From Rouxiella silvae (GTDB taxonomy: Bacteria; Pseudomonadota; Gammaproteobacteria; Enterobacterales; Enterobacteriaceae): a stretch of DNA of 47,222 bases. Below are positions 1,780 through 11,622 of this stretch, one piece after another. The stretch lies in assembly GCF_002093625.1 (NCBI RefSeq), contig NZ_MRWD01000047.1, positions 1 through 47,222 on the forward strand. The letters run 5' to 3'. The first letter of the stretch is position 1, and every line of letters starts with the position of its first letter. The translations under genes were made by a program, and so were the position numbers. The notes under the pieces were generated by a model, which was not told the DNA's origin, made no database searches, and saw only the letters and a program-made list of their open reading frames with translations.

Positions 1780-2538
1780 TTATGAGAAGTTTTCCAGGAC
1801 CGACAGGAACGAATTTCTGTCTCCATGCCCCTCAGTCAGTCTCACTCGCCCTTCAATATCGGCCAGATGGTGATCCATTAACTCACGGGCTTTTATTAAA
1901 TCCTTAGCTTTGAGGGCGGTGACAATCATGCGATGGTGGTCAGCACCACAGTCATCCTTTCTTTTTTCCTCGTAAAGTGACATCACGAGAGAGAGTCGCG
2001 CCACAATCTTGGCCAGCATTTCAGTCAACACCGGATTACCTGCCAGCTCGGCCAATACAATATGAAACTTGCCAGAAAGCACCGTCTTGGATTTTTCATC
2101 GCCATGATGATGGGTTTGCTCTTCTTCGTCAGCCAGAATTTCCAGCGCATTTAGCTGCTCCGGCGTTGCGCGCGCAATGACGAACTCCAATAACAGTGAT
2201 TCAATCCTTCGACGTGCTTCAAAAAGATTTCTGGCCTGCTCAATGCTCGGCTCTGCAACAAAAGTACCTCGATTGCGCTTTCGCTCCAGAAGATGATCGC
2301 TTTCCAAAACCCCCAAGGCGCCGCGCACTACCGTTCTGCTGACACCAAAATGTTCGGCAATCGCTTCTTCCAGTATTTTGGTGCCAGGAGTCAGTGCGCC
2401 TTCTCCAATCGCGGCGGCTAATGTCATACGAATACGTTCTGAAACATCATCGTGACTGTCAGCGCTGTTTATCGCCTTATTGGCGGCTGACGTCGCTTTA
2501 TTGCTCGTGCCGCGCGATTTTTTGATTATCTTTTCCAC
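1780..2538 (-). CDS. GntR/FadR-family transcriptional regulator
   Basis: This is a DNA-binding repressor or activator of the FadR subfamily, 252 residues from the chosen start. The N-terminal winged helix-turn-helix carries the usual signature: initiation block ALTPGTKILEEAIAEHFGVS, then SRTVVRGALGVLE and a wing ending KRNRGTFVAEP. The all-helical FCD ligand-binding domain follows, with conserved histidines in FHIVLAELAGNP, DHHRMI and DHHLADIE that normally bind a metal and a carboxylate effector. The GTG at 2538 was chosen because AAGAGG sits six bases upstream; a TTG at 2571 gives a longer form with no ribosome site. The gene is next to the TIM-barrel enzyme and ABC operon, so it probably controls them in response to an organic acid made or imported by that pathway. 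The target and effector are inferred, not seen. Confidence 0.85.
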   Translation of the reverse strand: MEKIIKKSRGTSNKATSAANKAINSADSHDDVSERIRMTLAAAIGEGALTPGTKILEEAIAEHFGVSRTVVRGALGVLESDHLLERKRNRGTFVAEPSIEQARNLFEARRRIESLLLEFVIARATPEQLNALEILADEEEQTHHHGDEKSKTVLSGKFHIVLAELAGNPVLTEMLAKIVARLSLVMSLYEEKRKDDCGADHHRMIVTALKAKDLIKARELMDHHLADIEGRVRLTEGHGDRNSFLSVLENFS

Positions 2539-2580
2539 CACAAACCTCTTAAGCACACATGCAGATAACAACGGGTTTTT

Positions 2581-2712: not shown

Positions 2713-3816
2713 TTACGAAAGGCCAATGCCTTGTTTATTACAAATGTGCCGAATATGGCGGGACGATTTATTGATGAAATTTATGGCTTCCTGAAAACCA
2801 TAAGGTTGATGCTGGTAATCTGGATATCCGTAATTATCCCTTTCGTAGACTTCCCAATCGGCTATCTCGCCGGCGATGACTCTCGTTTCGAACGCATCGA
2901 CCATTGACAGGTAAGCCTGCTCCTCATCTGTCGATAAATCAGGATGGCCGGCACGCCATAACGGATCGTTGAGCTGAATGCACTGCCTTGGATACGCACG
3001 TCGAGGATTATCCGCAGTGGATTGTGCAATCTCCAGAGAGAGATTAAGTTGCGGCTTTACTGCTGCCAAAATATGCAAAATGGCTGTGAAATCAACGATA
3101 CCCTCCCCACAAGGTCGTGGCTGAAAGTCAAAACCGCCGGCCGCTCTTCCGATATATGCATCCTTGATATGCGTTTGGCGGACGTAAGGGGCAAGACGTT
3201 TGGTCGCCCACACAGGATGTTCGGCGCGTTGCAGCATGTTTGCCGTGTCGAGCACGACGCCTGTACAATCTTCACCCACGGCTTCTATCAGGCGTAGAAT
3301 TTCGAACGAGGTGATTTCATCATGCGTTTCGATATTCATGTGGATCCCGAGCGCACGTGCTGCGGGTGCAAGTTTCTTAAGCACTTTTTCGGTAGCGAGC
3401 AGCTGCTCTTCCCACGTGACATCGGTGCGGAATCTATCCACCGCCAATCGTCCCCGATAGGCAGGCTTAAAATTTCCCGGCGATACCCAAAGTTCATGAC
3501 AGCCAATTGCCGCGCTGGCCTCCATCATTTTGGTGAGGCCTGCAATGATATCGCCCTCGCCAATTGCACGCAGCTCCGGAGACTCTGCGCTGCAATAAGG
3601 GTTAATTTTGCCTAGTCCGCTCTCCAGATAAAGTCCCAGCTCGTCGGCTTTACTGCGTATTTCTCGAAGCCGGCCGAGGTCGAGTGTCGGGCTCATATCC
3701 AGAACGGTACTAAAGAAAACTCCTCCTAGACCGAGCATCTTTACGTGGTCAAGGCTAGCGAGTGGGCCGCGCTTTTTGACTTCGGGTAATTTCAACCCAT
3801 CAATGCCTAATCTCAT
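2713..3816 (-). CDS. Sugar phosphate isomerase/epimerase-like TIM-barrel protein
   Basis: The 367-residue protein has the xylose isomerase-like (AP endonuclease 2) TIM-barrel fold. Four metal-ligand candidates sit at the ends of successive strands: E163 in NIETHDE, D190 in VVLDTANM, H216 in QTHIKDA and E262 in LSLEIAQ. This is the usual Glu-Asp-His-Glu set for isomerases and epimerases acting on keto or hydroxy sugars and polyols, with Mn or Mg as cofactor. A proline-rich linker and a C-terminal helical tail follow the barrel. The ATG at 3816 was chosen because GGAG lies six bases upstream, where the longer TTG start has no such site. The gene is divergent from the ABC operon and downstream of the GntR gene, which suggests it acts on the imported compound or a product of it. 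The exact substrate cannot be read from the sequence. Confidence 0.8.
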   Translation of the reverse strand: MRLGIDGLKLPEVKKRGPLASLDHVKMLGLGGVFFSTVLDMSPTLDLGRLREIRSKADELGLYLESGLGKINPYCSAESPELRAIGEGDIIAGLTKMMEASAAIGCHELWVSPGNFKPAYRGRLAVDRFRTDVTWEEQLLATEKVLKKLAPAARALGIHMNIETHDEITSFEILRLIEAVGEDCTGVVLDTANMLQRAEHPVWATKRLAPYVRQTHIKDAYIGRAAGGFDFQPRPCGEGIVDFTAILHILAAVKPQLNLSLEIAQSTADNPRRAYPRQCIQLNDPLWRAGHPDLSTDEEQAYLSMVDAFETRVIAGEIADWEVYERDNYGYPDYQHQPYGFQEAINFINKSSRHIRHICNKQGIGLS

Positions 3817-4442
3817 TACTGACTCCAAGTTTTATAAATGTCGAAAAAACCGTGCAATCGGCATGCCACTCTTTACTCTCAAGCAAGAAAGAAAAATATA
3901 ACAATTTGATTTTAATGAATAAATTAAACTAATTATATTATTAATAACTTTCGAAAGTATTTACGAAAGATAGTTTATCAACTGCTTCTGCTTCATTTGC
4001 CTGGTTAAATGATATCCTGAATAAATTCAGGAACAGACAAGAAATACTTAACTTATTGAAAATAATAACTTTCTCAGAGTGACTCTCGTCTTCTTGCTAC
4101 CTTTTCCTTTACCTACTCCCCTTAATCGATGAAAGTTTTGGTATTTGCTGCACCAAAATGATGACGAATGCGCACCAAAATAACAATAAAAACAAAACAT
4201 AAAGATTCGCATATTTATTATTATTCTTTTAAAAACAAATGTTCGGATGTATTTTTAAATTAAAAATGTTTTAAATCAGTTAGATAAAAACTCACTCTCT
4301 ACGGAAAATCATATTGGCATGTGGTTTGCTACCTGCTTCCTATGACTCATCATGACTCAATCACTTACTACTTGGTCTCACTCATTTCTTAAGTTTATGG
4401 GTTAACAACGGTCCTTGGATACGACTTGAATCAGGAAGCTAT
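3817..4442. promoter_or_regulatory. Divergent control region between the TIM-barrel gene and the ABC operon
   Basis: This AT-rich gene-free stretch must hold promoters for both directions. It contains several symmetrical elements: ACTTTCGAAAGT (3947-3958), CCTGAAT-AA-ATTCAGG (4016-4031), and TTTTGGT (4136-4142) facing ACCAAAA (4152-4158), with a second GCACCAAAAT copy exactly 22 bp farther on (4172-4181). The last set, two direct copies two helical turns apart plus one inverted copy, is the best candidate for the GntR or another regulator binding site. No consensus promoter stands out clearly. Confidence 0.45.
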
Positions 4443-5555
4443 ATGCCAGATATGCAGAACAACTCGCAAAAAAAACGATTAACTGTTCAGGGGCTTACAC
4501 ACAGTTATGGCGGAAAAAATGCCATAAATGATGTGTCATTCCATATTGAGGCAGGCGAAATCGTTGCCTTGCTGGGCCCAAGCGGCTGCGGCAAATCAAC
4601 CGTACTGCGCGCCATTGCTGGCCTGATCCAGCCAAAGGCCGGGCAGATAGATCTGGGAGGGCAGAACCTTGCGGTCGTCTCTGCCAGAGCGCGTGGTATT
4701 GGGATGGTATTTCAAAATTACGCGTTATTCCCGCATCTGACCGTTGCTGAAAATATTGCCTATCCTCTGGCCTGCCAGCAGATTTCACGCGCCGAACGCA
4801 AACAACGCGTAGAAGAGATGCTGGCGCTGGTCAGACTGAATGACTTTGGCAATCGACTGCCCCGCGAGCTGTCGGGCGGACAGCAGCAGCGCGTCGCCGT
4901 AGCTCGCGCCATCGCCGGTCGCCCTTCACTGTTGCTTCTTGATGAACCCTTTGGTGCATTGGATCGTGCGCTGCGCTTTGATCTACAGGTTGAACTGCTG
5001 CATCTGCAAAAAACGCTGGGCATCACCACGCTTATCGTTACCCACGATCAGGAGGAAGCCCAAAGCCTGGCTAATCGTCTGGTGCTGATGAATAAAGGTC
5101 AGGTTGAGCAGATTGATACCCCGATGGCCGTCTACGACAAGCCGAAGACCTTGTTCGTTAACACATTTATTGGTCAAGCTAACATGCTGCACGGCACGGT
5201 AGGCCAGCTAGAAAATGACAGCACGCTGATTACCCTGACCGATAATAAAACCCTTCGCTTGCCTCGACGTTTGAATTTCACACAGGGTTCCAGGGTCACT
5301 GTGACCTTCCGACCGGAGGAGGTTCGCCTTATTCCCCAGCATGGTGAAAACACGCAGCCCGTTCGTATGACCGTGTCCGTCCCGCTTGGCCCTTCTCTTG
5401 TGCACGATCTGGCGCTTGAAGATGGTACCAGCCTGCGCGCATCGGAACTTCGCGGGCCTTCCACCTTTATACCCGCGCCGGGAACTCAACTTTTCGCAGA
5501 AATTGACACCACTCGGTGCCACGTTTTTCCGGCTGAACCGGAATTTACCCGCTAA
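4443..5555 (+). CDS. ABC transporter ATP-binding protein, PotA type
   Basis: This is the cytoplasmic ATPase of a spermidine/putrescine-type importer, 370 residues. Visible motifs are Walker A GPSGCGKST (45-53), Q-loop Q91, signature LSGGQQQR (143-150), Walker B LLLLDEP (163-169) and H-loop H201. The C-terminal third is the TOBE beta domain typical of PotA, FbpC and related ATPases, containing TFRPEEVRLIP. An AGGAAG ribosome site lies four bases before the ATG. It is the first gene of an apparent operon with binding protein, two permeases, an M24-fold hydrolase and a flavin reductase, all in the same direction with short gaps. Family members carry polyamines, 2-aminoethylphosphonate, thiamine or ferric iron, and the partner proteins here look closest to the polyamine-like group. 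The substrate is not settled. Confidence 0.93.
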   Translation: MPDMQNNSQKKRLTVQGLTHSYGGKNAINDVSFHIEAGEIVALLGPSGCGKSTVLRAIAGLIQPKAGQIDLGGQNLAVVSARARGIGMVFQNYALFPHLTVAENIAYPLACQQISRAERKQRVEEMLALVRLNDFGNRLPRELSGGQQQRVAVARAIAGRPSLLLLDEPFGALDRALRFDLQVELLHLQKTLGITTLIVTHDQEEAQSLANRLVLMNKGQVEQIDTPMAVYDKPKTLFVNTFIGQANMLHGTVGQLENDSTLITLTDNKTLRLPRRLNFTQGSRVTVTFRPEEVRLIPQHGENTQPVRMTVSVPLGPSLVHDLALEDGTSLRASELRGPSTFIPAPGTQLFAEIDTTRCHVFPAEPEFTR

Positions 5556-5580
5556 TAACAGACTCTCAGAGGTAGGCATA

Positions 5581-6630
5581 ATGAAGGACTTTGAAATCAG
5601 TCGTCGTCGGTTCGGTTATTTGGTTGCAGGCGTTGCGGCGTCAACCATGCTGCCGTTTTCCCTGCGCGCCGCTGCTGCGGCTCAAAGCAGTGCGATTGCC
5701 GCAGCATTTCCAGGCAACTGGGAAGATGCGTATCGCAACATCCTGACCCCGATGCTGCAGAAAGAAGGCTTTGGCCTGACCATCGCCCCGGTGATGGCGC
5801 AGGATCAGTTAGCCAAAACGATGGCCAGCCCGGGCCACCCACCCTATGACACGCTGCTAATGTCGCCGGGGCAAACCACCGTAGCGATACAAAACAACCT
5901 GATCCAGAAAATTGATCCCAGCCGGCTCAAGAATTGGTCATTACTGGATCGCTCTTTTCAGGGTGAATATGGCCCAACGGTCACGGTTGAAGTAAACGGT
6001 ATCGCCTACAACCCGGATCTAGTTCCGCGGCCTAAAGGCTACCGCGATTTGTTTGAAAATCCGGCCTATAAAGGGTTGGTTTCCTGGACGGGCTTTGAGT
6101 CAAACACGGCGGTCATGGCCTATACGGAAATGGCCAAAATCTTTGGTACCGGCCCGGAAGATATGCAGGCCGTCTTTGAATTATTCAAAAAACACCCGGA
6201 CCAGCTCAAGGGCATTGTTGACAGCACCAATCACCAGATGACGCTGTTCCAGCAGGGCGAAATTGCCGTCTTCATGTGCAGCACCAACAACGTTGCCCGC
6301 CTGAAAAGCCTGGGGATGAATGCCGAATTTGTTCATCCACAAACCGGCTCACCGGCCGCGCCTGTCAATATCCATTTAACCAAGGGATCGACTAACCTCG
6401 ATGCCGCTTATGCCTATATGGATGCAGCCATTTCGCAAAGCGTGCAGCAGCAGCTAATGCTGCCGCCGACCGACATGTTCCCGACCAATCAAACGGTGGC
6501 ACTCTCCCCTGCGATTGCCGCCTATGTCACCCGTGACCAGATTAAGACGCTGGTTTACCCCGACTGGGCGTCGATTAACAAAAATCGCGATAGCTGGATC
6601 CGCCAGTTCGACACGCTGGTTGCCGGTTGA
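5581..6630 (+). CDS. Periplasmic solute-binding protein of the ABC importer, Tat-exported
   Basis: The 349-residue binding protein is of the PotD/SBP class II type. It begins with a twin-arginine signal, SRRRFGYLVAG, followed by a hydrophobic core and an alanine-rich cleavage region, so it probably crosses the membrane folded through Tat. The lobe motifs YDTLLMSPGQT, VNGIAYNPDLVP and GEIAVFMCSTNNV have the usual spacing for a clamshell fold. The ATG at 5581 follows AGAGGT by seven bases. An upstream in-frame extension from 5386 would overlap the ATPase gene and lacks a ribosome site. The gene sits 25 bp after the ATPase and 10 bp before the first permease. A Tat signal is uncommon for a polyamine-type binding protein in enteric bacteria, where Sec export is usual. 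The ligand is unknown. Confidence 0.9.
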   Translation: MKDFEISRRRFGYLVAGVAASTMLPFSLRAAAAAQSSAIAAAFPGNWEDAYRNILTPMLQKEGFGLTIAPVMAQDQLAKTMASPGHPPYDTLLMSPGQTTVAIQNNLIQKIDPSRLKNWSLLDRSFQGEYGPTVTVEVNGIAYNPDLVPRPKGYRDLFENPAYKGLVSWTGFESNTAVMAYTEMAKIFGTGPEDMQAVFELFKKHPDQLKGIVDSTNHQMTLFQQGEIAVFMCSTNNVARLKSLGMNAEFVHPQTGSPAAPVNIHLTKGSTNLDAAYAYMDAAISQSVQQQLMLPPTDMFPTNQTVALSPAIAAYVTRDQIKTLVYPDWASINKNRDSWIRQFDTLVAG

Positions 6631-6640
6631 GGAAATAAAG

Positions 6641-7468
6641 ATGAAGCAGAGCGGTTTTCCTTATGTCATTCCGATGCTGGTACTTTCCATCGTGTTTTTT
6701 GTCACCCCTCTGGCAGTGCTGGTTGGCTACAGCTTTGCCGGTCCGAGTGGCGCAACCCTCGGCCACTATGGGCAATTTTTTGGCGACGATTTTAACTTTC
6801 GCGTCCTGATCAATACCGCCCGTCTTGGCATAGAAACGGTGATCGGTACCACCGTGCTTGGCGTACCGATTGCTCTGCTGTACTGGCACAGTGGTAAAAA
6901 TGTGCGTCAGGTTTTAGTTTTCCTGACCCTCATTCCGATGCTGACCAGCAACGTGGTTCGCACCTTTGCCTGGATAGTGATCCTCGGTCGTCAGGGTCCC
7001 ATTAGCGAGGCGTTATTCTCACTGGGTATTACTGGGACGCCTACCAGCCTGATGTTTACCGAACTCGGACTGGTGATGGCCATGTGCCAGATTGATCTGC
7101 CGCTAATCATCCTGCCGCTGATTGCCGTGCTTTCGCGCACGCCTTTTCAACTCACGGAGGCCGCTCAGGTCTCCGGGGCGGGATCGTGGCGAATCCTGAC
7201 TACCGTGCTGCTGCCGCTGATGCTGCCGGGCCTGCTGGCCGGCTGGATCCTGGTGTTTGCCAGCACCAGCAGTTCGTTTGTCACCCAGGCGGTGATTGGC
7301 GGAGCGCGTAACGTCTACGTGCCGCAGCTGATTTATCGCGAAGTCGGCACGCTGTTTGACTGGCCGCTAGCCTCCGCTATTGCCGTGGTGTTGTTGCTGA
7401 CTACCGGCTGTTTACTGGTCGCACTGACCATGATCTCACGCCACAGGAGACTGGTCGGCCATGCCTAA
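6641..7468 (+). CDS. ABC transporter permease, PotB type
   Basis: This 275-residue inner-membrane subunit is of the PotB/HisM-like binding-protein-dependent transport family. About six transmembrane segments are visible, starting at residues 8-30. The cytoplasmic coupling loop has the EAA motif EAAQVSGAGSWRILTTVLLP, which docks on the ATPase. The ATG at 6641 follows GAGGAAATAAAG; a longer in-frame start at 6515 lies inside the binding-protein gene and is not credible. Its stop overlaps the start of the next permease by eight bases, which indicates translational coupling. It would pair with the PotC-type permease to form the heterodimeric channel. The gene is intact and of normal length for the family. 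Confidence 0.92.
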   Translation: MKQSGFPYVIPMLVLSIVFFVTPLAVLVGYSFAGPSGATLGHYGQFFGDDFNFRVLINTARLGIETVIGTTVLGVPIALLYWHSGKNVRQVLVFLTLIPMLTSNVVRTFAWIVILGRQGPISEALFSLGITGTPTSLMFTELGLVMAMCQIDLPLIILPLIAVLSRTPFQLTEAAQVSGAGSWRILTTVLLPLMLPGLLAGWILVFASTSSSFVTQAVIGGARNVYVPQLIYREVGTLFDWPLASAIAVVLLLTTGCLLVALTMISRHRRLVGHA

Positions 7469-8285
7469 TCATCGTGATAACCCTATACCGGCCGTGCTTT
7501 ACAAGATCTTTGTTTACGGCTTTGGCACGCTGTGCGTCATCTATCTGGTTGCGCCGATCGTTATTGCATTGATGATGTCGTTCACCTCGGGGCAAACCTT
7601 GAAGTATCCGCCGCAGGGATTTTCTCTGCGCTGGTATGAAGCGCTGCTCGACCCTGTCAGGTCAGGCACCGAGCATATCGCGGCTTGGAACTCGCTGAAA
7701 ATTGCCGGATGGGCGGTATTCGGCTCGCTGCTGTTTGCGGTGCCCGCCACCATCGGCATGACCCGCATGAAGCGCCGCAGCGTCAACGCCATTGAGCCGT
7801 TGCTTCTGGCACCGCTGGTGCTGCCGAGCCTGGTCTATGGTCTGGCCGCGCTGATCGTCGCCAACTTTATCGGCTTTCAGCCTTCGCTTGGGTTAACGGT
7901 GATCGGCCATGTTGTGGTGTTTGGCCCGCTGATGTATCGCGCCGTTTCGGTGGTGGCTCAGGGCATGAATCCTTCTTTGGCGGAGGCCTCTACCACCATG
8001 GGCGCCAGCTGGTTTATGACGCTGCGTCGCGTAACGCTGCCGCTGCTGACGCCGGGGATCCTCGCCGGGGCCTTCCTGGTATTTATTCAGTCGCTGGACA
8101 ACGTCACGGTCTCGCTGTTCCTTGCTGATGCCCGCACCACGGTGCTGCCGCTGCGCATGTTTGCGCTGATTGAAGAGTCGCTCGACCCTCGCGTGGCGGC
8201 GATTGCCGGAATATTAATCGCCGTGACGCTGCTTGGACTGCTGGTTGCGCGACGCGTGCTGTCGCCCGCGCGACAACAGCCATAA
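7461..8285 (+). CDS. ABC transporter permease, PotC type
   Basis: The 274-residue second permease has six predicted membrane segments, the first near residues 19-40. Its EAA loop reads EASTTMGASWFMTLRRVTLP, close to the family consensus. It starts within the last codons of the PotB-type gene, so the two proteins are probably made in equal amounts. The stop is followed by a 46-base gap and then the M24-fold enzyme gene, which has a good AAGGAACAACCC ribosome site. With the ATPase and binding protein it completes a full four-part importer. Nothing is truncated. The transported compound is likely processed by the next two enzymes. Confidence 0.92.
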   Translation: MPNHRDNPIPAVLYKIFVYGFGTLCVIYLVAPIVIALMMSFTSGQTLKYPPQGFSLRWYEALLDPVRSGTEHIAAWNSLKIAGWAVFGSLLFAVPATIGMTRMKRRSVNAIEPLLLAPLVLPSLVYGLAALIVANFIGFQPSLGLTVIGHVVVFGPLMYRAVSVVAQGMNPSLAEASTTMGASWFMTLRRVTLPLLTPGILAGAFLVFIQSLDNVTVSLFLADARTTVLPLRMFALIEESLDPRVAAIAGILIAVTLLGLLVARRVLSPARQQP

Positions 8286-8331: not shown

Positions 8332-9756
8332 ATGAATACTCACGCGACCCCCGCCGCAGGCTATCGCATCGGCTCGCTGCTGTCCGATTTTCAGCCAGAT
8401 TTCGAATTCTCGGCCCCTTTGCCGCTGCCGCTGGAGGAGTTCGAGGAGCGCCTGCGCCGCATCAGACGCCAGGCCGTCGAAGCAGGACACGACGCGATGA
8501 TTGTGCATGCGGGCAGCGTCGGCTGGTTCCACGTCTCTAATGCCTACCTGCGCTATATTTGCGACTGGATGCGTGAAGGCGTGCTGATCGTGCCGACCGA
8601 CTCAGATAAGCCTCTGACTCTGCTTTCATTTTTTACCCAGTCCGTTCTGCTGCCGCCGGGTGGCGAGCCGCTGTTAGTTGACGAAATCTGGCAGATTGGT
8701 CCTATTGGCCGTGAATATGCCGACCGCCCGGGCGATTCGGTGATTAAAACGGCTGAGAAGTGTGCTGAAATTTTGGCGCGTTCAGGATTAGCCAATGCGC
8801 AGATTGCTCAAATTGGCGATAGAACTTCTCTGACCTTCTGGGCTGCGCTGAATGCACTGGCACCGAAGTGCAAATTCGTTGCTGACAACGGCATTCTCGA
8901 TCGGCTGCAAAAAGTCCGCTCAGCGCGAGAAATCGCGATGCATCGCGCCGCCGCACAGCTGATTAGCATTGGCACTCAGGCGGCCTATCACGTTGCCAAA
9001 CCGGGCGTGACCGACCACGAAATCTTTGCCGCCTTTACCGCCGCACAAATGGCCTTCGGTGGCGAAACCGGTGACGGCTACCAGATCGGGATTAACGAAT
9101 TTGGTACCCACTGCGGCAAGCCCTATGGCCACGTTGTCAGGCCGGGTGACCTGATTAACCTGTATATCTCCAACGTCACCTGGCGCGGCTATACCGCACA
9201 GACTGCCCGCATGATTGCCATCGGGGAAATCACCTCGCATCAGGAAGAGGTGCTGGCCGCCTGTACCGAGGGCGTGAAGCGGGCCGAAAAATTGATTAAG
9301 CCGGGTGCGTTGATGCGCGACATTAATAACGCCGCCTTTGAGCCGATGATCGCACGCGGCATGCTGAACTCGCCCGAGGCCCGCACCATGCCTTATAACT
9401 GGGCACCAGAGGACGACGGTTCGGCACGGCTTATTCCGCGCCAGTATGTCAAAGACATTGACTGGGAAGCCCAGGGCAGAAAACTGATGCACGTTTATCC
9501 GGCAACTCACGGCCCGCACAACCCGAATCTTGGCCATTCTGTCGGTATGGCGGGCGGGCAAAACAGCTTTAACATTTCTTCCCATAACTACGATCGTCTG
9601 GAAGAAGGCATGGTTTTTGTGCTGCACACCCAATGGCTGGAGCCGCTTGCGGCCGGATGCAACATCGGCGACTGCTATGTGGTAACCGCCGACGGATTCG
9701 AGAACCTCAGCCGCCACACGCCGCTTGAAACACACCGTATTCGAACCGGAGCCTGA
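8332..9756 (+). CDS. M24-fold (creatinase-like) hydrolase lacking most metal ligands
   Basis: The 474-residue protein has the two-domain architecture of creatinase and prolidase: an N-terminal creatinase domain (about 35-190) and a pita-bread catalytic domain (about 200-460). Aligned by eye to E. coli MetAP, the five metal ligands become Y278, Q290, H402, H432 and G446, so only the histidine of the GHSVG motif remains. The histidine region H260-H267 (GTHCGKPYGH), matching the catalytic histidine of creatinase, is present. Creatinase is the known metal-free C-N hydrolase of this fold, so I infer a non-peptidase amidino- or amidohydrolase rather than a peptidase. The gene is in the importer operon and directly before the flavin reductase, which suggests it opens the imported compound. 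An ectoine-hydrolase-like role is another option. The reaction is not proven. Confidence 0.82.
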   Translation: MNTHATPAAGYRIGSLLSDFQPDFEFSAPLPLPLEEFEERLRRIRRQAVEAGHDAMIVHAGSVGWFHVSNAYLRYICDWMREGVLIVPTDSDKPLTLLSFFTQSVLLPPGGEPLLVDEIWQIGPIGREYADRPGDSVIKTAEKCAEILARSGLANAQIAQIGDRTSLTFWAALNALAPKCKFVADNGILDRLQKVRSAREIAMHRAAAQLISIGTQAAYHVAKPGVTDHEIFAAFTAAQMAFGGETGDGYQIGINEFGTHCGKPYGHVVRPGDLINLYISNVTWRGYTAQTARMIAIGEITSHQEEVLAACTEGVKRAEKLIKPGALMRDINNAAFEPMIARGMLNSPEARTMPYNWAPEDDGSARLIPRQYVKDIDWEAQGRKLMHVYPATHGPHNPNLGHSVGMAGGQNSFNISSHNYDRLEEGMVFVLHTQWLEPLAAGCNIGDCYVVTADGFENLSRHTPLETHRIRTGA

Positions 9757-9757
9757 T

Positions 9758-10432
9758 ATGACTAAGCCAACCGCACATACCTATTTTGATTTTGCGTCCT
9801 TAACCGAGCGCGAGCGCTATAAAATTCTGATTGGCACGGTGATCCCTCGCCCAATCGCGCTGGTCACCACGCTCAGCAAAGAAGGTTTACCCAATGCCGG
9901 TCCTTTTAGTTTTTTTAATGTTCTGACCCACGATCCGGCAATAGTCGCGGTTGGGGTAGAAAATTACTCTGATATGCGCTTCAAGGACACGGCACGTAAC
10001 ATCCGTGAGACCGGCGAATTTACCGTTCATATCGTGGATGACGCCCTCGTCAATCAGATGGAAATCTGCGCCATCAAGTTTGGTCCAGAAGTCGATGAGC
10101 TGAAGGAAGCCGGCCTGGAAACCGTGCCCGGCGAAAAGGTGCGCAGCCCACGTATTCTTGCCGCGCCCGCTGCCCTGGAATGCCGCCGTCACACCATTCT
10201 TCAGGTAGGGGCCGCCCGCGAAATTATTCTCGGTGAAGTTATCGGCGTCTATGTTCGCAGCGATGCTGTCAATCCCGAAAATCTGCACATCGATCAGCAA
10301 TTAATGGATGCCGTTGGACGTATGGGAGGTAATACCTACTGTCGAACGCGGGATCAGTTTGATGTTAAAACAATGACCAAAGCACAATGGGAAGCCCGCG
10401 AAATGACACAAAGAAATAAGGAAACCGATTAA
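9758..10432 (+). CDS. Flavin reductase-like, FMN-binding split-barrel protein
   Basis: The 224-residue product carries the flavin reductase-like domain. Its signature strands are IPRPIALVTTLSKEG, NAGPFSFFNVLTHDPAIVAVGVE and ETGEFTVHIVDD. Such proteins bind FMN and either supply reduced flavin to a monooxygenase or act as flavoenzymes themselves. The start at 9758 was chosen because GGAG lies six bases upstream and the previous gene ends two bases earlier; a TTG at 9725 would overlap that gene. No partner monooxygenase is encoded nearby, so it either works with an enzyme elsewhere or carries out its own reduction. It is the last enzyme gene of the importer operon before the porin. Confidence 0.88.
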   Translation: MTKPTAHTYFDFASLTERERYKILIGTVIPRPIALVTTLSKEGLPNAGPFSFFNVLTHDPAIVAVGVENYSDMRFKDTARNIRETGEFTVHIVDDALVNQMEICAIKFGPEVDELKEAGLETVPGEKVRSPRILAAPAALECRRHTILQVGAAREIILGEVIGVYVRSDAVNPENLHIDQQLMDAVGRMGGNTYCRTRDQFDVKTMTKAQWEAREMTQRNKETD

Positions 10433-10548: not shown

Positions 10549-11622
10549 ATGATGAAGCGTTCAGTCGTGGCGATAGCAATATCACTACTGCTCGGCATGT
10601 GCTCCGCACAAGCTGTCGAAATCTATAATAAAGACGGTAATAAACTCGACTTAAATGACAGAATAAAAGTTTCCCATGTTATATCTGATAATAGTGAGAA
10701 TAGCGGCGATGCCTCATCAAATATTCAGGGGGGGTTTATCGGTGAAACGAAAATCACCAATAAACTGACGGGTTACGGAACCTGGTCTTATCAATTCAGT
10801 TTACGTGACTCAGAGGGGAGCGATGCACAGAATGGCAATGCCACCCGCCTTGGCTTTGCAGGCCTAAAATATGATACCTGGGGTTCCGTTGACTATGGAC
10901 GTAATTTTGGCCTGATTTACGACGTGATGGCCAATACGGACATGTTACCCTACTTTGGTAGCGACTCTGACTATAACGACGTCTTTCTGGCTGGCCGTTC
11001 TTCCGGTTTACTGACCTGGCGTAATAATGGATTTTTCAATCTGGTCAAGGGGTTGAATATTGCCGCTCAGTATGAGGGCAAAAATGACCGCAGCGGCAGC
11101 GACAATGGCGTTACGCGTTCGAACGGCGACGGATTTGCCTTATCCGCCTCTTATACCTTCGATTCCGGGATAAGTTTTGGCGGTGCCTATGCCAGTCTAG
11201 ACCGGACCGAAGCGCAAAATTCATTTGTCCACGGAAAGGGCAATAATGCTCAAAACTGGGCAACCACCGTGAAATATGATGCTAACCAGATTTATCTGGC
11301 GGCTGTATATGGTGAAACGCTAAATGCAACACCGATCAGTGGCGGATTTGCCAATAAAGCCAACGTTTTTGAAGCGGTTGCGCAATATCAATTTATTAAT
11401 GGATGGCGCCCCTCTCTGGCCTATATCTCCTCCAGAGGAAAAGACATTGAGAATATTGGTGATGCCGATATTCTCAAATATGCCGCCCTCGGCACGTATT
11501 ATTATTTTAATAAAAACATGTCCCTTTTTGCAGAATATCGTCTTAATCTGCTAAAAGACAATAATCCTCTCAATGTTGCTACCGACAACATACTTGCTGC
11601 AGGTCTCGCGTATCAATTCTAG
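10549..11622 (+). CDS. OmpC/OmpF/PhoE-type trimeric outer-membrane porin
   Basis: The 357-residue precursor has a Sec signal peptide cleaved after AQA at about residue 22. The mature start VEIYNKDGNKLDL is typical of enterobacterial general porins. Family landmarks are LGFAGLKYDTWGSVDYGRNFG, the constriction-loop region following YDVMANTDMLPYFG, and a C-terminal phenylalanine in GLAYQF that the BAM complex recognises. The barrel should have sixteen strands. The first strand has diverged: NDRIKVSHVIS stands where the usual YGKVDGLHYFS occurs, so this is a specialised paralogue. It lies 116 bp after the flavin reductase gene in the same direction, which suggests it admits the pathway substrate across the outer membrane. 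A second ATG three bases on is equally possible as start. Confidence 0.9.
   Translation: MMKRSVVAIAISLLLGMCSAQAVEIYNKDGNKLDLNDRIKVSHVISDNSENSGDASSNIQGGFIGETKITNKLTGYGTWSYQFSLRDSEGSDAQNGNATRLGFAGLKYDTWGSVDYGRNFGLIYDVMANTDMLPYFGSDSDYNDVFLAGRSSGLLTWRNNGFFNLVKGLNIAAQYEGKNDRSGSDNGVTRSNGDGFALSASYTFDSGISFGGAYASLDRTEAQNSFVHGKGNNAQNWATTVKYDANQIYLAAVYGETLNATPISGGFANKANVFEAVAQYQFINGWRPSLAYISSRGKDIENIGDADILKYAALGTYYYFNKNMSLFAEYRLNLLKDNNPLNVATDNILAAGLAYQF

Follow-up and report, generated by a model that had tools for sequence, protein, structure and literature searches.

The gene at positions 8,332 to 9,756 of the window (the whole stretch of Rouxiella silvae DNA analysed here, 47,222 nucleotides in length) encodes a member of a real, conserved and non-canonical enzyme family, which is built on the M24 fold and keeps one of the five metal ligands of the M24 metallopeptidases. 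Its fold, its altered site and the genes that accompany it suggest, with somewhat less than even confidence, a non-peptidase hydrolase of the creatinase/EutD mechanistic type, probably metal-independent, that would act on an imported compound of the ureide or hydantoin type. The features of the window on which the argument draws are the following:

1780 to 2571, minus strand: GntR regulator with an FCD domain, divergent (domain profile)
2713 to 3828, minus strand: AP_endonuc_2 protein, a sugar-phosphate isomerase/epimerase-like TIM barrel, divergent (domain profile)
4443 to 5555, plus strand: ABC transporter ATPase, PotA/PhnT-like, with a TOBE_2 domain, in the block upstream of the M24 gene (domain profiles)
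5581 to 6630, plus strand: extracellular solute-binding protein, SBP_bac_8 (domain profile; ATG placed by hand, searches run with 5575 to 6627)
6641 to 7468, plus strand: first ABC permease, BPD_transp_1, PotB-like (profile; ATG placed by hand, searches run with a longer ORF from 6515)
7461 to 8285, plus strand: second ABC permease, BPD_transp_1, PotC-like (domain profile)
8332 to 9756, plus strand: M24-fold enzyme lacking the metal-ligand set, 474 amino acids (ORF with ATG; Pfam profile, alignments and structure model)
9758 to 10432, plus strand: Flavin_Reduct (FMN split-barrel) protein (profile; its ATG lies one base past the M24 stop)
10549 to 11622, plus strand: OmpC/OmpF-type porin (profile), adjacent and no part of the conserved operon

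The ABC ATPase, the solute-binding protein and the two permeases precede the M24 gene in this order and on the same strand. Domain profiles bear out the first-pass annotation in its description of the surroundings, namely an importer upstream, a flavin reductase and a porin downstream, and the divergent AP_endonuc_2 and GntR-FCD genes. The N-terminus of the solute-binding protein (MKDFEISRRRF) resembles what we take to be a Tat signal. The stretch running from the ATPase gene through the flavin-reductase gene has a GC content of 55.4%, the M24 gene one of 57.5%; elsewhere in the window the other measured gene stretches have 39–51% and the intergenic stretch before the ATPase 31%. A scan for promoters and terminators gave 17 and 15 sites compared with shuffle means of 12.2 and 14.2, with nothing clearly above chance. 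The solved structure nearest to the flavin-reductase-like protein is the 2-nitrobenzoate nitroreductase 4z85 (E 6e-41), and therefore a missing monooxygenase is not necessarily implied. PDB searches with the solute-binding protein and the TIM-barrel isomerase returned weak matches only, and the AP_endonuc_2 gene matched no NCBIfam family.

Membership of the M24 protein in the Peptidase_M24 superfamily (PF00557) is established by the profile, which matches residues 203–453 (E 3e-25; 89.5 bits vs. a gathering cut-off of 23), and by structure comparison (Foldseek E 8e-22). The ligand columns were placed by alignment to solved prolidases and to the genome's own PepP, PepQ and MetAP, and the joint alignment took in these three proteins together with two plasmid-borne creatinases and three EutD proteins. 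At the ligand columns the 474-residue protein carries Y278, Q290, H402, H432 and G446, with the histidine alone retained; the same assignment had been made at first pass, and the prolidase, PepP, PepQ and MetAP alignments all return it. The ligand table consists of nine reference rows (own_L001, L003, L005, L006, EUTD_L101, L102, L104 and the two creatinases) and is without rows own_L002, own_L004, own_L007 and EUTD_L103. The columns read D D H E E in MetAP, PepP and PepQ of the genome, N A H E H in the creatinases (L105, L106), E P Y M T in the EutD proteins (L101, L102, L104) and Y Q H H G in the family described here.

The five altered residues are identical in 88/88 aligned sequences, a set made up of the window, 7 plasmid loci and 80 genome loci kept from the 141 relatives found. 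Because all five positions are invariant, the altered site is a maintained one, and gene decay is ruled out. The D, D, H, E, E set of an M24 metallopeptidase occurs in none of the 88 sequences, and the invariant replacement of four of the five ligands likewise rules out a canonical dipeptidase. A catalytic-type histidine is kept: H260 aligns with the histidine of creatinase GAHNP, EutD APHLT and MetAP VCHGI, corresponds to the catalytic histidine in the GAH motif of creatinase and is retained in 87/88 sequences, as is Y265. The first-pass annotation had matched the whole H260–H267 region to the creatinase catalytic histidine; H260 bears this out, whereas H267 takes no part in the match, being histidine in 81/88 sequences and arginine in the other 7. 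Further invariant residues are H59, Y250, Q251, C261, K263, P264, A292, H387, H396, N399, Q434 and W435.

The AF2 model, built from 49 of the 88 family sequences (pLDDT 81.5, pTM 0.84), supports a creatinase/EutD-like fold. Its best PDB match in Foldseek is creatinase 7yto, with the E value given above, in agreement with the creatinase-like M24 fold proposed at first pass. The prolidase entry 5giu, titled 'metal-free active site', is also among the best matches; EutD/DoeA stand at ranks 8 and 10 (EutD with a TM score of 0.79 by target length), and DddP at ranks 32, 35, 36 and 45, below the prolidases and EutD/DoeA. By sequence, the best PDB matches are prolidases. The pita-bread fold is described in passages of PMC8438212.

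Linkage was counted by tblastn in the 87 loci other than the window; ORF calling in GC-rich loci missed the M24 gene in some of them (at least L014, L077, L079, L085 and L086). At most 10–14 kb of flank was covered, with less than 17 kb in total for L017, L035, L082 and L088, and absences hold within these stretches. The ABC ATPase, solute-binding protein and two permeases lie directly upstream of the M24 gene in 72/87 loci, the flavin-reductase gene lies directly downstream in 71/87, and both linkages occur in 69/87. Absence of the importer linkage in relatives would have counted against the first-pass reading, and the linkage is upheld. A GntR match is present in 71/87 loci and an AP_endonuc_2 TIM-barrel match in 64/87. 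The porin, which had been counted as part of the operon, does adjoin the flavin-reductase gene in the window, but only 5/87 loci have a match (among them L023, at 38% and on the opposite strand), and it is ruled out as a required part.

Other genes accompany the M24 gene in smaller sets of loci. An amino-acid-type permease together with a binding protein is additionally present in 53 of the 87. Directly behind the M24 gene are found an amidase (L012 and L077), a gene of the ornithine-cyclodeaminase/mu-crystallin family (L085), to which EutC belongs, and a ProC-family gene (L014). EutA/arylmalonate-decarboxylase-like genes stand near the M24 and flavin-reductase genes in L042 and L080, with an EutA score of 37 bits vs. 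a cut-off of 318. On pAtC58 of A. fabrum C58, a gene of the octopine/nopaline dehydrogenase family was observed about 1 kb past the flavin-reductase gene (L010:17122-18204).

The recurrent partners in a minority of the relatives, namely UGHY, hydantoin-racemase, PuuE-like and amidase genes, point to a putative ureide- or hydantoin-type chemistry. Matches to (S)-ureidoglycine aminohydrolase (UGHY) occur in 10/87 loci, the L033 copy having an in-frame stop and the L035 copy being a fragment; none was found in the fetched flanks of the other 77. In seven loci (L020, L022, L030, L032, L033, L042 and L056) the UGHY ORF overlaps the flavin-reductase ORF by four bases, and such an overlap usually signals a shared operon. 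UGHY begins about 80 bases past the M24 stop in L083 and lies about 1 kb further in L027, and the L035 fragment starts 148 bases on. The two linked copies that were scanned reach 513 and 525 bits, above the curated cut-off of 445. In the UGHY tree, drawn without the linked copies of L033 (in-frame stop) and L035 (fragment matched), seven linked copies group in a single clade that excludes the four further copies included for comparison. The L083 copy is placed elsewhere, which implies at least two recruitments. Outside L083 the linkage may represent a single gain with losses, because the linked copies form one clade and their loci are mixed with UGHY-lacking ones within the Rhizobiaceae.

Among ten other genomes tested, those of L042 and L056 each have one UGHY above the cut-off, which by its coordinates is the M24-linked copy, and both have an allantoicase; to judge from the known pathway, their normal purine route should therefore not need UGHY. 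Genes of the hydantoin-racemase family are found in 10/87 loci, all of them among the 16 loci without the flavin-reductase gene, with PF01177 in those scanned. Around L083, the racemase-family gene and the UGHY-type cupin each have a second representative (the second cupin at 261 bits vs. a cut-off of 200), and an M20 hydrolase and two PuuE-like genes are present as well; the PuuE-like genes of the L107/L083 region score 71–74 bits, far below the PuuE cut-off of 425. Inspection by eye of this region of Agrobacterium sp. AGB01 (L107, L083) showed a ureide-type supercluster that also includes a PotABCD-type importer and a GlcD-like oxidase, along with the two racemase-family genes, the two PuuE-like genes, the M20 gene, the two UGHY-type cupins and the M24 gene.

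The identity of the substrate has to be viewed against the remaining purine genes. In 11/11 genomes tested, that of the window included, a PuuE allantoinase scores above the cut-off, so allantoin itself does not call for the M24 enzyme. Searches of the window's genome found neither UGHY nor allantoicase, and no UGHY was found in two of the ten other genomes tested; on these grounds the idea that the window operon is the allantoin route of the organism was not adopted. Nor is there an obvious step for the flavin-reductase or the isomerase gene in the degradation of allantoate. Since PuuE is present in all genomes tested, UGHY was not found in most of the flanks and the FMN and TIM-barrel steps are unplaced, the compound acted on may be another ureide, a hydantoin or a cyclic amidine, or none of these.

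According to the preferred reading, the ABC importer would bring in a small nitrogen-rich carboxylate, most likely of the ureide/hydantoin type and of plant origin. H260 would activate water for attack on a carbonyl or amidine-type carbon, and the C–N bond would be broken with no need for the dinuclear metal centre typical of the fold; creatinase and EutD, both metal-free, provide the precedent. The polar replacements Y278, Q290 and H432 could hold the substrate or the transition state. In creatinase an arginine from the partner subunit holds the carboxylate, and R81, which aligns with an arginine in the N-terminal domain of creatinase, may do the same. Further conversion of the product would fall to the FMN split-barrel protein and the TIM-barrel isomerase, joined in some relatives by a hydantoin-type racemase, an amidase or ureidoglycine aminohydrolase. 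A bolder version would make the family the third metal-independent C–N hydrolase specificity of the M24 fold, besides those for creatine and ectoine; it would act on an imported ureide or hydantoin (e.g., converting allantoate to ureidoglycine, or acting on a related cyclic ureide) and define an unrecognised, horizontally spread form of ureide scavenging in plant-associated bacteria, Agrobacterium fabrum C58 and Rhizobium johnstonii 3841 among them. This version is possible but unlikely.

Several other explanations have to be weighed against a metal-independent ureide hydrolase. Six histidines are invariant or nearly so (H59, H387, H396, H402 and H432 in 88/88 sequences, H260 in 87/88), which would suit a remodelled metalloenzyme with a His-rich ligand set composed of H402, H432 and one of H260, H387 or H396, perhaps with Q290. 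H396 has no counterpart histidine in any of the nine reference rows, H432 stands in place of a ligand glutamate, and metal-free EutD has no histidine at the five ligand columns. However, all nine reference rows share the H260 histidine, and PepP and PepQ have a histidine at the H387 column, so neither is new here, and creatinase, although metal-free, likewise carries histidine in two of the ligand columns (N A H E H); a rebuilt metal site is regarded as unlikely. The guanidino or cyclic amidine substrates favoured at first pass would imply a function close to that of creatinase or EutD, and this would accord with creatinase as the best Foldseek match, with EutD in the top ten, and with the EutA-like genes (L042, L080) and the ornithine-cyclodeaminase-family gene (L085), which recall eutABCDE clusters. 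The columns of creatinase Glu262 and Glu358, which we take to be the guanidinium-binding glutamates, are nevertheless occupied by A292 and H432, both invariant in 88/88 sequences, and the guanidino part of the proposal is weakened. EutD also lacks both glutamates, so their loss does not count against a cyclic amidine. Against the reading as a whole, the protein scores far under the cut-offs of the EutD/DoeA models (31.6 vs. 613 bits for TIGR02993 and 45.7 vs. 575 bits for NF038259), which rules out an ectoine hydrolase, and no EutE deacetylase was found among the neighbours put to domain search, in part of the 87 neighbourhoods. A guanidino or cyclic amidine hydrolase thus seems rather unlikely, and the earlier interpretation is partly supported, having moved from guanidino towards ureide-type chemistry.

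The M24 fold also serves proteins that are not hydrolases, such as the DMSP lyase DddP and the non-peptidase Ebp1. The presence of DddP among the Foldseek matches and the absence of the canonical hydrolytic ligands would be compatible with a lyase, isomerase or binding protein, but the catalytic-type histidine and many other domain residues are retained and several recurrent partners belong to C–N hydrolase or racemase families, and a non-hydrolytic role is considered improbable. The current annotation in the records is 'Xaa-Pro peptidase family protein', mostly so among the annotated rhizobial and agrobacterial plasmid copies looked at. This name and the prolidases as best PDB matches by sequence speak for a metal-dependent Xaa-Pro dipeptidase; given that four of the five ligands are invariantly replaced and that linkage with the importer and the flavin-reductase gene is conserved, such an activity is very improbable, and those plasmid copies are almost certainly not Xaa-Pro peptidases despite their annotation.

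The M24 gene occurs in 3/6 genomes of the window's genus (the window's own included), in 1/295 sampled genomes of the order, which is the window's own, and in 2/398 sampled genomes of the phylum at E ≤ 1e-40, i.e., the window's own and one other; both phylum matches span residues 1–472 or 2–472 with more than 930 bits. In the plasmid collection, 127/72,556 records match the M24 protein, 48 of them at 80–90% identity, and in 60 rows spread down the ranking the identity drops from 63% to less than 30% with no intermediates except one fragment of 7% coverage. The close plasmid matches, among those listed, are from Rhizobium and Agrobacterium and include pAt of A. fabrum C58. A hand count of genus names among the 80 genome loci gave 42 Rhizobium, Neorhizobium, Agrobacterium, Allorhizobium or Xaviernesmea and 14 Rahnella, Pantoea, Erwinia or Tatumella, and the gene is also carried by two model strains, R. 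johnstonii 3841 (L025, with an orthologue 86% identical to the window protein) and A. fabrum C58. The family tree comprises 76 of the 88 sequences (the 12 left out are mostly close relatives of kept rows), and its 14 enterobacterial rows, which include the window, cluster together (97/87) next to the Rhizobiaceae, with the window adjoining Rahnella victoriana. This arrangement, in a tree that is midpoint-rooted only, fits a transfer of the gene into the Enterobacterales. In Erwinia aphidicola JCM 21238 the operon was found on two contigs (L064, L065) with identical match coordinates and identities, which suggests a duplication or an assembly artefact.

Some side observations concern other M24 genes. 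The genome of the window contains a second ligand-less M24 gene (L112:4574-5761, contig C62) with the columns E A Y P S, which is EutD-like but under the cut-off (299 vs. 575 bits); by eye, it sits in an amino-acid ABC cluster alongside genes for an enolase-superfamily protein, a DapA-like protein and an M20 hydrolase. A further cluster of transport genes, on contig C32 of the same genome (14000-28500, L111), contains two PuuE-like genes in tandem; by eye, it also has MmgE/PrpD and nitrilase genes, ABC genes of the NMT1 type and a short M24 gene seemingly keeping two aspartates. With a creatinase sequence as query, 424 plasmid records match, of which 265 are Klebsiella and 103 Acinetobacter and 417 have 60–80% identity, and most annotated rows among the 15 listed say just M24 family metallopeptidase.

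A search of the openly licensed literature returned no title naming this M24 family, which is weak evidence of novelty, and in the same literature no paper was found on a metal-free M24 hydrolase beside an ABC transporter, nor a creatinase paper for the residue roles. Guessed old locus tags for the operon genes of A. fabrum C58 led to no paper. For the R. leguminosarum 3841 transcriptomes, guessed tags and product words retrieved nothing attributable to the operon from passages of PMC3333776, and a term search gave no occurrence in PMC6421345. If the preferred reading is true, root and leaf bacteria would possess an overlooked, importer-linked route for taking nitrogen from a plant compound, and the family would add another case in which nature has converted a metallopeptidase fold into a hydrolase that works without metal. 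As two model strains carry the gene, the question is directly testable.

Among known systems, EutD/DoeA (6twj, 6twk, 6yo9) resemble the M24 protein in fold, catalytic-type histidine and ligand loss, whereas their ligand columns (E P Y M T) and operon partners differ. Action behind a dedicated importer is a further shared trait: EutD is so described in sections of PMC8739950, which also describe how it opens the ring and call the EutABC steps uncertain, and the eutABCDE cluster is described in part of PMC13188858. Creatinase (1chm, 1kp0, 7yto) has the same two-domain pita-bread fold, the [FY]QxGINxxGxH segment with the catalytic histidine and the N-terminal-domain arginine of the R81 column; it differs by its low identity (18–19% in Foldseek alignments), by its ligand columns (N A H E H vs. 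Y Q H H G) and in having no counterpart to the segment around H387–H396. The prolidases or Xaa-Pro dipeptidases (5cdl, 1wy2) likewise place an M24 domain behind an N-terminal domain, but the protein described here is without four of their five metal ligands. Finally, genes of ureide catabolism or their relatives (UGHY, PuuE, hydantoin/allantoin racemase family) adjoin the M24 family in part of its range; we know of no M24 enzyme that serves as a step of a known ureide pathway, and in this setting the family would represent a different protein fold for such a step.
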